Below, one piece after another: positions 12,974 through 44,111 of a stretch of DNA of 45,548 bases (position 1 is the stretch's first letter; every line of letters begins with the position of its first letter). The stretch lies in the NCBI GenBank assembly GCA_005787575.1, contig SYAN01000004.1, forward strand, positions 1-45,548. Direction: 5' to 3'. A model generated the notes under the pieces. The model saw only the letters and a program-made list of their open reading frames with translations, ran no database searches and was not told where the DNA came from. The translations under genes were made by a program, and so were the position numbers. This stretch comes from Actinomycetota bacterium. Lineage in GTDB: Bacteria > Actinomycetota > Actinomycetes > Nanopelagicales > Nanopelagicaceae.

Positions 12974-12979
12974 AGGCTA
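12974..12979 (-). promoter_or_regulatory. Possible -10 (TAGCCT) for priA
   Basis: TAGCCT ends 8 bases before the priA GTG, and its TAG is the metK stop codon. It is weaker than the other candidates because of the longer spacer and poorer consensus. Confidence 0.25.
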
Positions 12980-14176
12980 CCCCTTGATGACGTCAGCGAG
13001 TTTCGATGCCCGGTCCGCCTTCTCCCAGGTGAACTCCGGCAGTTCACGACCGAAGTGTCCATAGGCTGCAGTTTTGCCATAGATCGGCCGCAACAAATCT
13101 AAGTCTGAGATAAGAGCAGCAGGCCTGAGATCGAATACTTTGGTGATTGCATCGCTAATTTGGGTATCTGGAACTTTTCCTGTGCCGAAGGTTTCGACAA
13201 AAAGTCCAACAGGCTGCGCCTTTCCGATTGCGTAGGCAATCTGCACTTCACATCGATCGGCAAGACCCGCCGCAACGACATTTTTCGCCACCCAGCGCAT
13301 TGCATATGCTGCAGATCTATCAACCTTTGATGGATCTTTGCCGCTGAACGCGCCGCCACCATGTCTTGCCATACCGCCATAGGAATCAACGATGATTTTT
13401 CGCCCAGTAAGTCCTGCGTCACCCATCGGTCCACCAATCACAAATCGCCCCGTTGGATTGATCAGGGTGCGCACTTTAGAAGTATCTATAACTAAGTCGC
13501 TGAGAACTGCGTCAATTACATGCTCTTTAATCTCAGGTGCCAACTTGCCTTCGACATCCACAGCTGATGCATGCTGGCTCGAAATGACTACGGTATCGAT
13601 GCTGACTGGTGTATCCCCATCGTATGCGATCGTGACTTGAGTCTTTCCATCGGGCCGAAGGTACGGAAGGAGTCCGCTCTTTCTGACCAAAGTAAGCCTT
13701 TCAGCGAGTCGATGCGCCAACCAAATTGGCAGAGGCATCAAGGTTGGAGTCTCTCTGCTCGCATAACCGAACATCAACCCTTGGTCACCAGCTCCTTGTA
13801 GATCAAAGGGATCACTTGATTGAGTTACACGCTTCTCCACGGCACTGTCGACACCTTGCGCAATATCGCTTGACTGCTGACCAATCGAGATTGAGACGCC
13901 GCAACTATTCCCGTCAAATCCCTTCTCTGAACTGTCATAGCCAATTCCAAGGACGGTATCCCTCACAAGTGAAATGACATCTGCAAAACCCTCTGTCGTA
14001 ACCTCACCAGCAACATGGACTTGCCCGGTGGTTATCAGGGTCTCAACCGCAACACGCGACTTTCTATCTTGGCGCAACAAATCATCGAGAATCGCGTCGG
14101 AAATCTGATCAGCAATCTTGTCGGGGTGGCCCTCGGTTACAGACTCAGAGGTGAACAAGCGAACTGCTTTACTCAT
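12977..14176 (-). CDS. metK: S-adenosylmethionine synthetase
   Basis: Makes SAM from methionine and ATP. The 399-residue protein has [20 protein letters not shown] at the N-terminus (ATP and Mg site), [12 protein letters not shown] (about 125-136, family signature) and the glycine-rich [19 protein letters not shown] (about 260-278, phosphate loop). The ATG at 14176 overlaps the coaBC stop by 8 bases, and AGGG lies 8 bases upstream within coaBC, so the two are coupled. The order rpoZ-coaBC-metK-priA is the standard actinobacterial one. Confidence 0.98.
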
Positions 14177-15383
14177 GACTTACCCTCTCTTTGATCTGGT
14201 CTAACAAAGTGTCAGCCAGTCTTTCCTTTGTGACGTCATTAATCGAAGTGATAGTTCCTTCTCGAGTGATGATTGCACCTCTTGTGATCTCTGATCCAAA
14301 GACTTTCCCATCTGAGACGTCGTTGACATAAATCAGGTCAGCGCCCTTTCGCGCCAGTTTGGATTTTCCAGCTTCAATCAACGCCGCCTCGTCGCCTTCG
14401 GTTTCCGCTGCGAAGCCGGCAATAACCTGGCCCCGTCGCTTCTTCGCAGAAAACTCAGCAAGCAAATCTGGATTTTCTTCCAAAATAAGAGCACCCAACT
14501 TATCTTTCTTTATCTTGTTACTAGAAACCGATACTGGCTTGGCATCTGCAACCGCTGCGCTCATGACCAGGACATCGACATCATCAAATCTAGTCAGGAT
14601 CTCTTCTCGCATCTGAAGAGCACTTTCGATTTCAACGGTCTCGATACCCTCTATAACTGGCAGTTCATTGGGCCCTAGAAGAAGGGTTACCGTGGCTCCG
14701 CGCATAGCGGCTTGGTGAGCAATTGCCCAACCCTGCTTCCCGCTCGAGCGATTTCCGATGTAACGCACTGGATCTATTGGCTCTCGAGTTCCACCCGCGG
14801 TAACTAACATTCTCACTCCGACGAGATCGGCGCAGTAGCCGTAACTCTCTTCAATAAACGTGATGATTGCAGCAGTTTCAGGAAAACGGCCGACCCCAGA
14901 ATCCGCTCCGGTGAGCCTTCCAGTCGCCGGCTCCATGACAAATAGGCCACGATCTCGAAGCTTCTCTACATTCTCCACGGTGGCTGGGTTGAACCACATC
15001 TTTGGATGCATCGCGGGAATCAGCATCACAGGAGCCGTTGTGCTCAATACTGTATTTGTAAGTAAGTCATCCGCACGACCTTGTGCGATTCTGGCGATCA
15101 AGTCGGCAGTGGCAGGCGCTATCACCACAAGATTTGCCTTATCCCCAAGCGCCACATGAGGTACATCTGCGACATGCTCCCAAAGTTCACTCTGGGCTTT
15201 GCGCCCCGAGAGCGCTTCCCACGTTGCCTTCCCGACGAAGTTCAGTGAATTTGGCGTTGGAACAACCGTGACAAGAAAACCATTATCTTGAAGGCGTCGC
15301 AATAAGTCGGCGGATTTATAAGCGGCAATCCCTGCTCCGACACCGAGGATTAATTCTCTACCTCTGGGGAATTTCGTGGTCAC
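14169..15383 (-). CDS. coaBC: Bifunctional phosphopantothenoylcysteine decarboxylase / phosphopantothenate-cysteine ligase
   Basis: Performs two steps of coenzyme A synthesis, adding Cys to 4'-phosphopantothenate (CoaB) and decarboxylating the product (CoaC, FMN-dependent). The N-terminal flavoprotein domain (about 1-180) has [39 protein letters not shown] with the catalytic His, and PAMHPKMW. The C-terminal ligase domain (about 190-404) has [23 protein letters not shown] and [10 protein letters not shown]. The start is GTG at 15383, 12 bases after rpoZ, with AGAGGT upstream. Confidence 0.97.
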
Positions 15384-15395
15384 CGACGTGACCTC

Positions 15396-15662
15396 TTACT
15401 TGCTCTGAGTCGGTTCCAATTGCTCAATGGAGAGGAGGTCTTGGTTGATTTCACGTAGCGCTATCGAAAGAGGCTTCTCGTGAACATTCGTCTCAACCAA
15501 GGGACCCACATATTCCAAGAGCCCTTCACCGAGCTGCGAGTAATAGGCGTTGATCTGTCGCGCACGCTTTGCTGCGTATAGAACGAGACTGTACTTAGAA
15601 CCGGACTTCTCCAAGAGTTGATCAATCGGAGGGTTCGTAATTCCTTCAGTCTTGATTTCCAT
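15396..15662 (-). CDS. rpoZ: RNA polymerase omega subunit
   Basis: Small subunit that aids assembly of the beta' subunit of RNA polymerase. The protein of 88 residues has the conserved [20 protein letters not shown] and [12 protein letters not shown] helices, plus the actinobacterial segment [19 protein letters not shown] chose ATG 15662 (MEIKTEG) because AAGGA is placed 9 bases before it; a GTG at 15683 would put this ribosome binding site inside the gene. It lies between gmk and coaBC, its usual place. Confidence 0.95.
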
Positions 15663-15728
15663 TGTCGCGCTTCCTTCTTTCACATCAGAACTTTTGAGTT
15701 CAACGTGTATTTGTGCGGGGGCTCCCGG

Positions 15729-16634
15729 CTAAGAGGTCGCTAAGGCTACCAGTCGATCAACTACTTCAGCCACTTCGGTATTTACCAGCACTAAATCGAA
15801 CTCATTGGAGGCTGCAAGCTCCTCTTGAGCCAGTATCAATCGCTGGGCAATTCGTGAATCGTCATCACTTCCCCGCCCCCGAATTCTTGCCTCAAGTTCC
15901 TCCCACGAAGGAGGTGAGATGAAGACCAATGTCGCCTCAGGATGACGCTTGCGAACTTGGCGCGCTCCTTGAATTTCAATTTCGAGGACGACATGTTTTC
16001 CAAGCATTCTTTTTTCATGAACATCATGCTCAAGGGTTCCATAAAGATTTCCAGCGAATTCCGCCCACTCCATGAATTCATTATTGGCGATACGAGATTC
16101 AAAATCTTCACGGCTGACGAAATGATAGGAAACGCCATCGATCTCGCCGCTACGTGGCGCTCTCGTTGTGACGCTGACACTCACAAAGAAATCATCAAAC
16201 CGACTGAGTGATTGTGTGATTGTGCTCTTGCCAACCCCACCAGGCCCCGATATAACAAAGAGTCTCCCGTAAATGGATCCGCTCACGCCTCCAAGGGTAC
16301 TAAGCAACTTTCGCGACGGATTCTTTTCGACGAGCTCCAGAAGGCGGTCTCGTTGCTTGACCCCGAGCCCCGCAATTCTCCTTCTCGAAGATATGCCGAT
16401 TCGCTCCATTAACTCCTTTGCGCGGATCTCACCTATGAACGGTAACGACTCCAACATCTCCATAACCAACATACGATCTTTTGCTTCGCTCTCAAGTCCT
16501 AGCAGGCTTCGAAGATCGAGAGTCCCTTCTTTCAATCTTCGCTTGATATCTGCACGCTCTCGCCGCGCAGCAACCGCTTTCATTCCATTGGCACGCCGAG
16601 TCTCGGAATCGAGTTGGGGTGGCAGATGCTTCAT
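15729..16634 (-). CDS. gmk: Fusion of an mIHF-type DNA-binding domain with guanylate kinase
   Basis: A single open frame of 301 codons. Residues about 10-103 match the actinobacterial integration host factor (mIHF): a basic N-terminal helix (MKAVAARRERADIKRRLKEG) and a helix-two-turn-helix segment LESLPFIGEIRAKELMERIG plus RIAGLGVKQRDRLLEL. Residues about 123-301 are a complete guanylate kinase (GMP to GDP): P-loop GPGGVGKST at 130-138, GMP-binding VTTRAPRSGEIDGVSYHF, and EIEIQGARQVRKRHPEATLVF. In mycobacteria and Streptomyces these are two separate adjacent genes. The start at ATG 16634 is 16 bases after pyrF; an upstream in-frame start at 16748 would lie inside pyrF and adds nothing recognisable. 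A GGAGG just before codon 117 (GTG) could allow separate synthesis of Gmk. Confidence 0.9.
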   Translation of the reverse strand: MKHLPPQLDSETRRANGMKAVAARRERADIKRRLKEGTLDLRSLLGLESEAKDRMLVMEMLESLPFIGEIRAKELMERIGISSRRRIAGLGVKQRDRLLELVEKNPSRKLLSTLGGVSGSIYGRLFVISGPGGVGKSTITQSLSRFDDFFVSVSVTTRAPRSGEIDGVSYHFVSREDFESRIANNEFMEWAEFAGNLYGTLEHDVHEKRMLGKHVVLEIEIQGARQVRKRHPEATLVFISPPSWEELEARIRGRGSDDDSRIAQRLILAQEELAASNEFDLVLVNTEVAEVVDRLVALATS

Positions 16635-16650: not shown

Positions 16651-17334
16651 CTAGTGAAGTGAATCAAGAATCTCCGCTGCGGCCGCTCCGGGATCTTTCG
16701 AGGCTGTGATCGGTCTTCCAATAACGAGAAAGTCGCTACCAGCGTCAATCGCCTCTTTTGGTGTCATGGTTCTAGCTTGGTCGTCTTGTGATGATCCCGC
16801 GGGACGAATCCCAGGAGTGATTGTGATTCCTGCTGGAACACACTTCTTTATCTCTGCGACCTCGCGAGCCGAAGAGACAATTGCGCGGGCACCTGCCTGA
16901 AAGGCAAGTTCGCTCAAACCAATTACTCTCTCTTGCACCGAACCTGTGAATCCGACGCGTCTCATCTCCTCTTGGTCAAGGGAAGTCAATATCGTTACGG
17001 CTGCAATCATTGTCTCTGGTACCGCATCCGCAGCAGCCTTAATCATCTCGGTTCCACCCGTCGCATGAACTGTCAAGAAAAGCGGGCGGAGCGGAGCGAT
17101 CGACCGAGCGGCCCCAGCCACGGTGTTCGCAATATCGTGGAGTTTTAGGTCCAGGAAAAGTTCGATATCGAAACGGTCAATGAAACTACGAAGAACATCT
17201 TGACCATACTTGAGATAGAACTCAAGACCGAACTTGTAAACCGAGACGGAGCCACGTGTTGCCTTTATCAAAGAATCAACAATCGCTAGATCCGTGGTGT
17301 CAACTGCGACAATTAACGGAGAGCGCTCAACCAT
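16651..17334 (-). CDS. pyrF: Orotidine 5'-phosphate decarboxylase (type 1)
   Basis: Last step of UMP synthesis. The 227-residue TIM-barrel protein has the catalytic tetrad motif FLDLKLHDIANTV at 60-72 (Asp62, Lys64, Asp67), then VTPGIRP-like ITITPGIRPAGSSQDDQ and FLVIGRPIT. This is the type 1 family, whereas mycobacteria and many other actinobacteria use the longer type 2 enzyme. I chose ATG 17334 (MVERSPL): it overlaps the pyrD stop by 8 bases and has GGAGTGG a few bases upstream; a start at 17373 would be inside pyrD. Confidence 0.95.
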   Translation of the reverse strand: MVERSPLIVAVDTTDLAIVDSLIKATRGSVSVYKFGLEFYLKYGQDVLRSFIDRFDIELFLDLKLHDIANTVAGAARSIAPLRPLFLTVHATGGTEMIKAAADAVPETMIAAVTILTSLDQEEMRRVGFTGSVQERVIGLSELAFQAGARAIVSSAREVAEIKKCVPAGITITPGIRPAGSSQDDQARTMTPKEAIDAGSDFLVIGRPITASKDPGAAAAEILDSLH

Positions 17335-18253
17335 GAGCCACTCCGATTGCATCTCGTAACCTAGCAAAGCCATGATGAATAAGAAGAGAGGCGAGTTCGC
17401 TCTTTATTCTGACTGGAGCTAGAGGATCTCCGAAAGAAGCTGTACCGACCGAGACTGCGCTAGCTCCGGCTGCAATCAACTGCAAAGCATCTGAACCAGA
17501 AGCAACCCCACCCATTCCAAGAATTGGAACTTTTGGGAACCTGGAATGCACTTGATAGATAGCTCGCACCGCAACTGGCCTAATTGCTGGGCCGGAAAGT
17601 CCACCAGTTTTGCCACCAAGTAAAGGCTTCAGGGTCTTTGGGTCAATCACCATTCCAAGCAATGTGTTGATCAAAGCTAAGCCATCGGCACCGGCGTTTA
17701 TAACTTCTCCAGCGATAGCGCAAATATCAGTCACATCGGGTGAGAGCTTCGCAATGATTGGAAACTCACCACCAATATTTATCCTGACGGTTTCAATGAC
17801 AGCTCGAGCTGAAGTTGGATCACATGCGAAAACCATTCCTCTATTCTCAACATTGGGACAGGAGATATTTACCTCTATGGCAGCTATTCCTCGAACGCCT
17901 CTAAGTCTCCTCGCAAGTGCCCCATATTCATCAACACTCTCTCCTGCGATGGAGACAACTGCCCGCGCCCCCGTTTCAAGAAGCCACGGCAAGTCATCCT
18001 CAAGGAAATGATCTATTCCAGGGCCTTGCAATCCGATGGAATTCAACATGCCCGATGGTGTTTCAGCCATCCGCGGAGTCGCTCGCCCCGACCGAGGTCT
18101 AAGCATGATCGACTTGGTGACCATGGCACCCAGTTCAGTCAGCGGGAAGAATTGTGACAACTCCTTTCCCGAAGAGGCACAACCGCTTGCGGTGAATATG
18201 GGGTTTTCAAACTTTGCATAAGCAAGTTCCGTCGAAAGATCTACAACACTCAT
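17327..18253 (-). CDS. pyrD: Dihydroorotate dehydrogenase, class 1B catalytic subunit
   Basis: Oxidises dihydroorotate to orotate. The 308-residue FMN TIM barrel carries the class 1 catalytic Cys in EVNISCPNVENRG (Cys132), preceded by NSIGLQGPGI and followed by AKLSPDV and a C-terminal MGGVASGSDALQLIAAGASAV phosphate-binding part. Pairing with pyrK just upstream makes it class 1B (NAD-linked heterotetramer) rather than a membrane quinone enzyme. ATG 18253 overlaps the pyrK stop as ATGA; a start at 18265 is possible but less likely. Confidence 0.96.
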   Translation of the reverse strand: MSVVDLSTELAYAKFENPIFTASGCASSGKELSQFFPLTELGAMVTKSIMLRPRSGRATPRMAETPSGMLNSIGLQGPGIDHFLEDDLPWLLETGARAVVSIAGESVDEYGALARRLRGVRGIAAIEVNISCPNVENRGMVFACDPTSARAVIETVRINIGGEFPIIAKLSPDVTDICAIAGEVINAGADGLALINTLLGMVIDPKTLKPLLGGKTGGLSGPAIRPVAVRAIYQVHSRFPKVPILGMGGVASGSDALQLIAAGASAVSVGTASFGDPLAPVRIKSELASLLIHHGFARLRDAIGVAHG

Positions 18254-41933: not shown

Positions 41934-44111
41934 TTAACTGTTGGTGACTCGATAGACGTCATAGACGCCATCGACCGCTCTTACTGCGCTTAGTACTGCA
42001 TCCAAGTGTGAGGCATCAGCCATTTCGAAAGTAAACCTCGAATATGCCGTTCGATCCTTGGCGGTGTGGACTGAGGCATTGAGAATGTTGACGTGTTGGT
42101 CAGAGAGCGCTTTTGTGACATCAGAGAGAAGGCGGCTTCGATCTAGAGCCTCTACCTGGATATTGACCATGAAGAGCGATCGAGCATCTGCGTTCCAACG
42201 AACCTCGACAAGTCTCTCATTTTGATTTTTACGCAAATCTTCCATGTTGATGCAATCGCTCCGATGAACGGAGACTCCGCTTCCTCGCGTAATGAAACCA
42301 GTGATTTCATCTCCAGGGACCGGAGTGCAACATCGCGCTAACTTCACCAGGAGGTCATCGACACCCTCCACATGCACACCGGAATTGCTTCGTCGCTCCA
42401 GCTGTCCGATAGCTGTCTGCGTAACGATTGCTGAATCGGTTACATCCTCGAATGGTTCTTCGACACCGATGGCGACAATTAACTTATCCACGACCGATGC
42501 AGATGAAATATGCCCGTCACCGATTGCAGAGTAGAGCGAATCCATATCTTCGAAGCGAAGATCGTGTGCAAGTTCCAAGAGGGCCTGACCCGAGAGGATC
42601 TTCTGAATCGGAAGGCCAGCCTTTCGCATCTGACGAGCGAGTGAAGACTTACCGGCTTCGATTGCTTCTTCTCGTCGTTCCTTTGTGAACCATGCCTTGA
42701 TTTTCGATCTCGCGCGTTGGGATTTGGCGAAAGCGAGCCAATCACGGCTTGGTGCTGCCTGAGGACTTTTATTGGTCAAGACTTCAACGGTATCGCCGTT
42801 ATTCAATGGAACTTCCAAGGAGACTAGTTTTCCGTTGACTTTAGCGCCGACGCATTTATTTCCAACCTCAGTGTGAACCGCATAAGCAAAATCAACTGGA
42901 GTAGAACCAAAAGGCAAGGCGATGACGCTCCCCTTCGGTGTGAAGACGAAGACCTCCGGGGTTCGTAAGTCATATCGGAGCGCGTCGAGGAATTCATCGA
43001 CATCTTTGTTCTCCTGTTGAATTTCGTGGAGTTGCCTAAGCCAGATCATCTCGGCATTGCTATCACCTTGCTTGTTCTCGCTCTTGCCACCTTTGTATTT
43101 CCAGTGAGCAGCGATACCGAATTCCGCCCTAGCGTGCATCTCTGCGGTGCGGATCTGTAGCTCAACCGCTTTGCCAGTTGGACCGATTACCGTCGTGTGT
43201 AACGACTGATAGAGATTGAACTTAGGCATGGCGATGTAATCCTTGAAGCGACCGGGTACTGGGCTCCACCTTGCGTGGATTGCACCAAGTGTTGCGTAAC
43301 AATCACGGACATCATCGACCAAGACTCTGATTCCTACCAAGTCATAGATATCGTTGAAGTCACGGCCACGCACCACCATCTTCTGATAAACGCTGTAATG
43401 ATGCTTCTGTCGTCCTTTGACATCTGCCTTGATTCCCTCTTTCTTGAGATCTTCGCTCACTATCGAGAGAACATCTCGGGTGAGTTCGTCGCGACTTGGG
43501 TTTCGCTCCACAATGAGTCGGTCGATCTCCTCATATTTCTTTGGCTCCAGCGTCTTGAACGAGAGGTCTTCGAGCTCCCACTTGATCGCATTTATTCCCA
43601 GTCGATGAGCGAGCGGGGCATAGATCTCAAGCGTTTCCTTAGCTTTGCGCGTCGCACTCTCAGGGGAAACGAATTGCCAGGTTCTTGCATTATGTAAGCG
43701 ATCCGCAAGCTTGATGATGAGCACACGGATATCTCTCGACATCGCAACCACCATCTTTCGCACCGTCTCAGCTTCTGCGGTTGGCCCATAGGTGAGTCGA
43801 TCCAATTTGGTCACACCATCGACTAACGATGCGATCTCCTCACCAAACTCATCCTGGAGTTTCGAAAGGGAATATTGAGTGTCCTCCACCGTGTCATGAA
43901 GGAGCGCGGCACAGATTGTGGCTGCATCTAAACCCAGTTCAACAAGAATCTCGGCGACTGCAACGGGATGAGTGATGTATGGGTCGCCGGATTTTCTTAC
44001 CTGTCCGTGATGCGCTGAATTAGCCCGCTCAAAGGCCTTCTCCAGAAGTTCGATGTCACTCTTCTTCCATGAGCCGGAAAGGCGTTCACGGACCGGCGCG
44101 ATCAGAGTCAT
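41934..44111 (-). CDS. rel: Bifunctional (p)ppGpp synthetase/hydrolase
   Basis: Makes and degrades the stringent-response alarmone. The 725-residue protein has an HD hydrolase domain (HDTVEDT at 72-78, KLADRLHNART), a synthetase domain with RFKDYIAMPK (the RxKD form found in bifunctional enzymes) near 290, then TGS (VFVFTPKGSVIALPFGSTP), a conserved-Cys part (KLARCCTPVPGD, VHRSDCIN) and a C-terminal ACT domain (about 645-725). Both active sites appear intact. ATG 44111 has no Shine-Dalgarno; TAAAAT lies 6 bases upstream. apt, usually the next gene upstream, is absent and secF follows instead after 23 bases. Confidence 0.98.
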   Translation of the reverse strand: MTLIAPVRERLSGSWKKSDIELLEKAFERANSAHHGQVRKSGDPYITHPVAVAEILVELGLDAATICAALLHDTVEDTQYSLSKLQDEFGEEIASLVDGVTKLDRLTYGPTAEAETVRKMVVAMSRDIRVLIIKLADRLHNARTWQFVSPESATRKAKETLEIYAPLAHRLGINAIKWELEDLSFKTLEPKKYEEIDRLIVERNPSRDELTRDVLSIVSEDLKKEGIKADVKGRQKHHYSVYQKMVVRGRDFNDIYDLVGIRVLVDDVRDCYATLGAIHARWSPVPGRFKDYIAMPKFNLYQSLHTTVIGPTGKAVELQIRTAEMHARAEFGIAAHWKYKGGKSENKQGDSNAEMIWLRQLHEIQQENKDVDEFLDALRYDLRTPEVFVFTPKGSVIALPFGSTPVDFAYAVHTEVGNKCVGAKVNGKLVSLEVPLNNGDTVEVLTNKSPQAAPSRDWLAFAKSQRARSKIKAWFTKERREEAIEAGKSSLARQMRKAGLPIQKILSGQALLELAHDLRFEDMDSLYSAIGDGHISSASVVDKLIVAIGVEEPFEDVTDSAIVTQTAIGQLERRSNSGVHVEGVDDLLVKLARCCTPVPGDEITGFITRGSGVSVHRSDCINMEDLRKNQNERLVEVRWNADARSLFMVNIQVEALDRSRLLSDVTKALSDQHVNILNASVHTAKDRTAYSRFTFEMADASHLDAVLSAVRAVDGVYDVYRVTNS

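Follow-up and report, generated by a model that had tools for sequence, protein, structure and literature searches.

The window, i.e. the whole stretch of 45,548 nucleotides analyzed here, carries an mIHF-Gmk fusion gene on its minus strand at positions 15729..16634 (16634→15729, an interval that the original prediction had placed correctly). The gene runs from an ATG at 16634 to a stop codon at 15731-15729 and encodes 301 amino acids, while frame inspection of the plus strand of the same interval finds stops throughout and no coding frame. An extended version of the frame could begin upstream at TTG 16748, within the 3' end of pyrF. In one relative (G581), however, the open frame is just 302 codons long, and Met1 (ATG 16634) is therefore the likely start.

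The N-terminal part of the protein is an mIHF domain (residues 6-101; 16332..16619, minus strand), composed of a basic lid helix and an S13-like helix-two-turn-helix, and passes the cut-off of the NCBIfam model actino_IHF (NF041260; 1.8e-25, 89.4 bits vs. a cut-off of 60). The C-terminal part is a guanylate kinase domain (residues 123-299; 15738..16268, minus strand) that lies above the TIGR03263 guanyl_kin cut-off (1.6e-64, 216.9 bits vs. 160.45) and, when aligned to 1znw, shows an intact P-loop, GPGGVGKS at 130-137, and GMP-binding region, SVTTRAPRSGEIDGVSYHF. Between them lies a linker of approximately 21 residues (102-122; 16269..16331, minus strand; VEKNPSRKLLSTLGGVSGSIY), and the junction of the window gene shows no stop, frameshift, or low-complexity stretch. 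Pfam domains are placed accordingly, with H2TH_5 at 35-100 and Guanylate_kin at 123-295. By sequence, the N-terminal part matches the PDB entries 4itq (Streptomyces SCO1480, 1.4e-18) and 6tob (mycobacterial mIHF, 5.8e-16), and the nearest solved structure for the C-terminal part is the Mycobacterium tuberculosis Gmk 1znw (1.1e-43); given these E-values, chance resemblance is excluded. As such, the predicted mIHF domain, joined in one frame to a complete Gmk by a linker of about 20 residues, is borne out by two curated models. One feature of actinobacterial IHF that is missing is its occurrence as a small stand-alone protein, as here mIHF runs in frame into Gmk. In sIHF numbering, the positions R11, R22, R25, K29, R54, R71, R85, and R86 are all basic in the window mIHF, and K56 and K69 are not (L and E, respectively). 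An AlphaFold model of the fusion, built from four sequences, has a pLDDT of 56.2, which is too poor to judge contact between the halves.

The fusion sits in a run of genes on the same strand, with the transcription order carB-like, pyrK-like, pyrD, pyrF, fusion, rpoZ, coaBC, metK, and priA-like. The pyrF gene (16651..17373, minus strand) is immediately upstream, with 16 bases from its stop to the fusion ATG, and rpoZ, encoding RNA polymerase omega (15396..15683, minus strand), is the next gene downstream, followed by coaBC (14169..15383, minus strand) and metK (12977..14176, minus strand). The carB-like neighbor is named by a look at its sequence alone, and the pyrK-like electron-transfer subunit scores below its curated cut-offs. 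A full-length Rel/SpoT (p)ppGpp synthetase is also present in the window (41949-44036, minus strand; 829.9 bits vs. a cut-off of 499.2), and is single copy in the genome.

The draft genome that holds the window comprises 1.24 Mb in 105 contigs and is 88% complete. In this assembly, the only guanylate kinase (PF00625 match) is that of the fusion gene, and the genome search found no separate mIHF, nor was a second copy found in a further 80 genomes from the order; exactly one mIHF above cut-off is present in each of these 81 genomes. The fusion gene is thus the only detected source of both predicted activities in the window genome, and its Gmk is presumably essential. The genome also has one copy of HU, and Lsr2 was not detectable in it.

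The same architecture is widespread in relatives, as a search of actinobacterial genomes reveals. Within the genus of the window (g1), the junction is open in all five members, the other four proteins being 59-89% identical to that of the window. Across the order, which we take to be Ca. Nanopelagicales (acI), a match is found in 149 of 151 genomes, and 125 of these 149 carry a full-length, stop-free fusion. The other 24 comprise 2 matches cut at contig ends, 19 genomes whose best match is kinase-only, and 3 with one in-frame stop between the halves (L012, L061, and L062, i.e. genomes G125, G122, and G134), where mihF and gmk share a frame. Fused genera account for 9 of the 15 in the order (g1, g2, g3, g4, g5, g7, g10, g12, and g14), and the unfused ones are g6, g8, g9, g11, g13, and g15. 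In family f36, probably Microbacteriaceae, the fusion is present in 74 of 79 genomes, each from a different genus, and two genomes of one genus in family f34 are also fused. As such, the fusion has come close to fixation in two large bacterial lineages, and is both real and recurrent.

Among the five unfused f36 genomes, one has the halves in different frames, and the other four (L152-L155; G514, G517, G573, and G568) carry a Gmk with no mIHF detectable closer than about 1.2 kb to gmk, possibly reflecting mIHF loss in small genomes. Three loci from families f5 and f34 (L113, L115, and L116) likewise have gmk without mIHF in the flanking sequence. In a search for fusions in other classes of the phylum, which covered 247 genomes, mIHF and Gmk often lie in the same frame with a stop between them, and among the matches listed the only stop-free fusions are those of the window and of one f36 genome, with none from the other classes. 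Viral contigs (L144-L151) match only the kinase half, and distantly, with best segments 33-45% identical.

A tree built on both halves (80 rows) requires five changes of the fused state, and at least three of these are forced by well-supported branches. The AU test rejects a tree on which all fused proteins form one clade (P = 0.0206), and therefore the fusion either originated two or more times, or originated and was later undone. Single clades of the order's fused proteins (AU P = 0.20) and of the f36 and f34 fused proteins (AU P = 0.29) are not rejected. In the early-branching genera of the order, mihF and gmk are split, and the fused g1 sits in an unresolved knot with the split g8 and g11. 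In most g8 and g11 members, the gmk start lies within the mihF stop (ATGA, or a one-base overlap of start and stop). The two genes are also found in frame and without a gap, TAG being directly followed by ATG in G125 and TAA by GTG in G122, so that a single substitution would fuse them in either genome. Because relatives show these ATGA overlaps and in-frame junctions, we propose that the fusion would have formed by loss of the stop codon between neighboring, cotranscribed genes (pyrF-mihF-gmk-rpoZ order). The graded junctions—i.e. apart, in-frame stop, ATGA overlap, fused with an internal start, and fused without one—make up a natural series for the fusion of operon neighbors.

Based on the sequences, we consider it quite probable that the gene encodes a genuine bifunctional fusion, with an N-terminal actinobacterial IHF (mIHF/sIHF) and a complete C-terminal guanylate kinase each in its ancestral role. 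This reading has to be weighed against others. The window derives from a draft assembly of 105 contigs, and an open frame could arise there from a sequencing or assembly error that deleted a stop codon, as the original prediction had cautioned. However, all five genus members share this open junction, as do roughly two hundred of the other genomes sampled, some of them assembled into a single contig, and we reject this explanation as having next to no probability. A more serious alternative is that the one frame gives two products, i.e. the fusion and a separate Gmk, translated from an internal start retained from the formerly separate gmk, in which case some of the Gmk would be free and its level would not follow that of mIHF 1:1. 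The evidence is strongest in g4, g5, g7, g10, and g14, where 33 of 33 genes have an ATG, GTG, or TTG in the 11 codons that precede the kinase (for a single gene, the chance of this is about 0.47), although sequences within a genus are related and these counts are not independent events. In these genera, the median Shine-Dalgarno pairing is −7.7 kcal/mol, compared with −2.6 at other in-frame start-like codons, and pairing of −6 kcal/mol or lower is found in 85% of cases vs. 10% of other start-like codons. Codon usage points the same way, as at codon −8 Leu is encoded by TTG in 16 of 18 cases and Val by GTG in 7 of 9, compared with 25% and 21%, respectively, across the same genes. Lastly, the observed pairing of −8.2 is stronger than the −3.5 expected from synonymous reshuffling; taken singly, just 36% of the genes are at P ≤ 0.05, and the case rests on the group. 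Together, these signals suggest that the five genera also make a stand-alone Gmk; internal starts with a strong Shine-Dalgarno (e.g. L023, L032, L052, L123, and L136) would be missed by annotation, and predict a second product. In the window's genus, the candidate ancestral gmk start is the Val117 codon (GTG, 16284..16286, minus strand), which lies near the position where split gmk genes begin and is GTG in three of five species and ATG in the other two. A start-like codon so close to the kinase makes a separate Gmk conceivable, but the Shine-Dalgarno signal of this genus is at background (−2.0 vs. −1.8 after reshuffling), and GGAGG is just one base from the GTG. Nor is the internal start general, being absent in most of f36 and parts of g2 and g3. 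Specifically, 10 of 13 f36 genes and 10 of 27 g2 genes have no ATG, GTG, or TTG in the 11 codons before the kinase, and therefore Gmk can most likely be obtained only from the fusion there; the same is likely in g3, where the start signal is at background, and in g2, where it is slightly above. Overall, two products from one frame are a tentative possibility, on balance doubtful, and in the window's genus the fusion would be the main product, possibly with some extra free Gmk.

It is also conceivable that the mIHF half is decaying into a mere N-terminal extension of Gmk, with HU, of which the window genome has one copy, left to pack the chromosome. Relative to the kinase, mIHF evolves faster in fused lineages (genus medians of the mIHF/kinase rate ratio 0.5-2.2, median about 1.5) than in split ones (0.2-1.2, median 0.86; Mann-Whitney P = 0.0009), although this comparison uses non-independent genera, and its split set is limited in size and in part made up of closer relatives. 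For order-internal pairs of matched divergence, the gap narrows to 1.53 for fused vs. 1.27 for split. The faster rate could mean partial loss of function, which would also count against the bifunctional reading, and decay would fit both the score of the window mIHF (91 bits in the search of the order genomes, below the split mIHFs of the order, which reach 138) and the four f36 genomes that have gmk and no detectable mIHF nearby. By contrast, the core of basic and glycine residues (R11, R22, R25, K29, K/R54, R71, R85, R86, G91, and Q94 in sIHF numbering) is conserved in almost every fused or split protein, the net charge of mIHF is similar in both (about +7 to +10), the fused mIHFs of g2 and g3 score about equal to split ones, and mIHF is never lost in the 81 order genomes searched. 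Moreover, dN/dS between the window and G116 is far under 1, at about 0.05 in each half (dS saturated), and both halves are under purifying selection. We read the faster evolution of mIHF as looser surface constraint and not as loss, and regard decay as unlikely. The linker may be constrained as well, as residues 105-121 show a dN of 0.00-0.03 and a dS of 0.49-0.67 among the three closest species, where the mIHF half has a dN of 0.15-0.18; these 17 codons are few and provide a hint.

We therefore retain the bifunctional fusion, for which the 88% complete draft leaves room for a second copy. The mIHF half would most likely bind and bend DNA, and the kinase half would most likely convert GMP to GDP, both as ancestrally. 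The protein probably remains uncleaved, and the fusion would lock mIHF and Gmk synthesis at 1:1 and keep some or all of the GMP kinase bound to the nucleoid. The idea that a nucleoid protein is tethered to a GMP kinase thus follows from the architecture, with the restriction that in sister genera an internal start probably also frees Gmk.

Given what is reported for the separate proteins, we wondered whether the two activities could be coupled. The sIHF protein is among the most abundant DNA-binding proteins of Streptomyces nucleoids (PMC3784963) and, according to PMC10028186, binds DNA in monomeric form. GMK is described as a dimer that (p)ppGpp inhibits in several phyla (PMC6783271). mIHF is essential in M. 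tuberculosis (PMC6155035), and mycobacterial Gmk is likewise essential (PMC5686395). Kinase dimerization or (p)ppGpp may possibly provide a link. A stronger version, in which DNA packing and the guanine-nucleotide state would form one machine, with kinase dimerization supplying a second mIHF copy and DNA bridging modulated by kinase-bound nucleotides, appears decidedly improbable; a Rel is encoded in the same window.

In a literature search that covered few subscription journals, we found no description of this fusion. NCBI types the mIHF model NF041260 as "equivalog_domain," which suggests that its curators are aware that mIHF occurs inside longer proteins. Considering this typing and the many sequenced genomes that carry it, the fusion is therefore a widespread and overlooked variant of known families. 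A nucleoid protein and a purine-nucleotide kinase in one polypeptide, across two large actinobacterial lineages, is nonetheless unusual, and bears on why mihF and gmk remain neighbors across the phylum, on whether an abundant protein of the nucleoid can be linked 1:1 to a kinase, and on whether chromosome structure responds to GTP supply or (p)ppGpp.

As the original prediction stated, the two genes are separate in mycobacteria and Streptomyces: mihF, gmk, and rpoZ are separate genes in that order in M. tuberculosis, where deletion of mihF required supplied gmk and rpoZ owing to polar effects (PMC6155035), and the Streptomyces sIHF SCO1480 is a separate protein of 107 amino acids. The N-terminal half resembles Mycobacterium Rv1388 and SCO1480 in its whole-length family match, its neighborhood upstream of gmk/rpoZ, and its basic core, but these are stand-alone proteins of approximately 105-110 amino acids, whereas here a C-terminal kinase has been added and the mIHF's own stop codon is gone. 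Similarly, the C-terminal half shares with bacterial Gmk (TIGR03263; M. tuberculosis 1znw) the full catalytic domain, P-loop, single copy, and gene order; it differs in having a DNA-binding N-terminal part of approximately 122 residues and, in the window's genus, no well-supported start of its own. The eukaryotic MAGUK and LRGUK proteins also join a guanylate kinase domain to other domains, but their kinase domains match that of the window as distant relatives only, and their partners are PDZ, SH3, or LRR domains, unlike mIHF.
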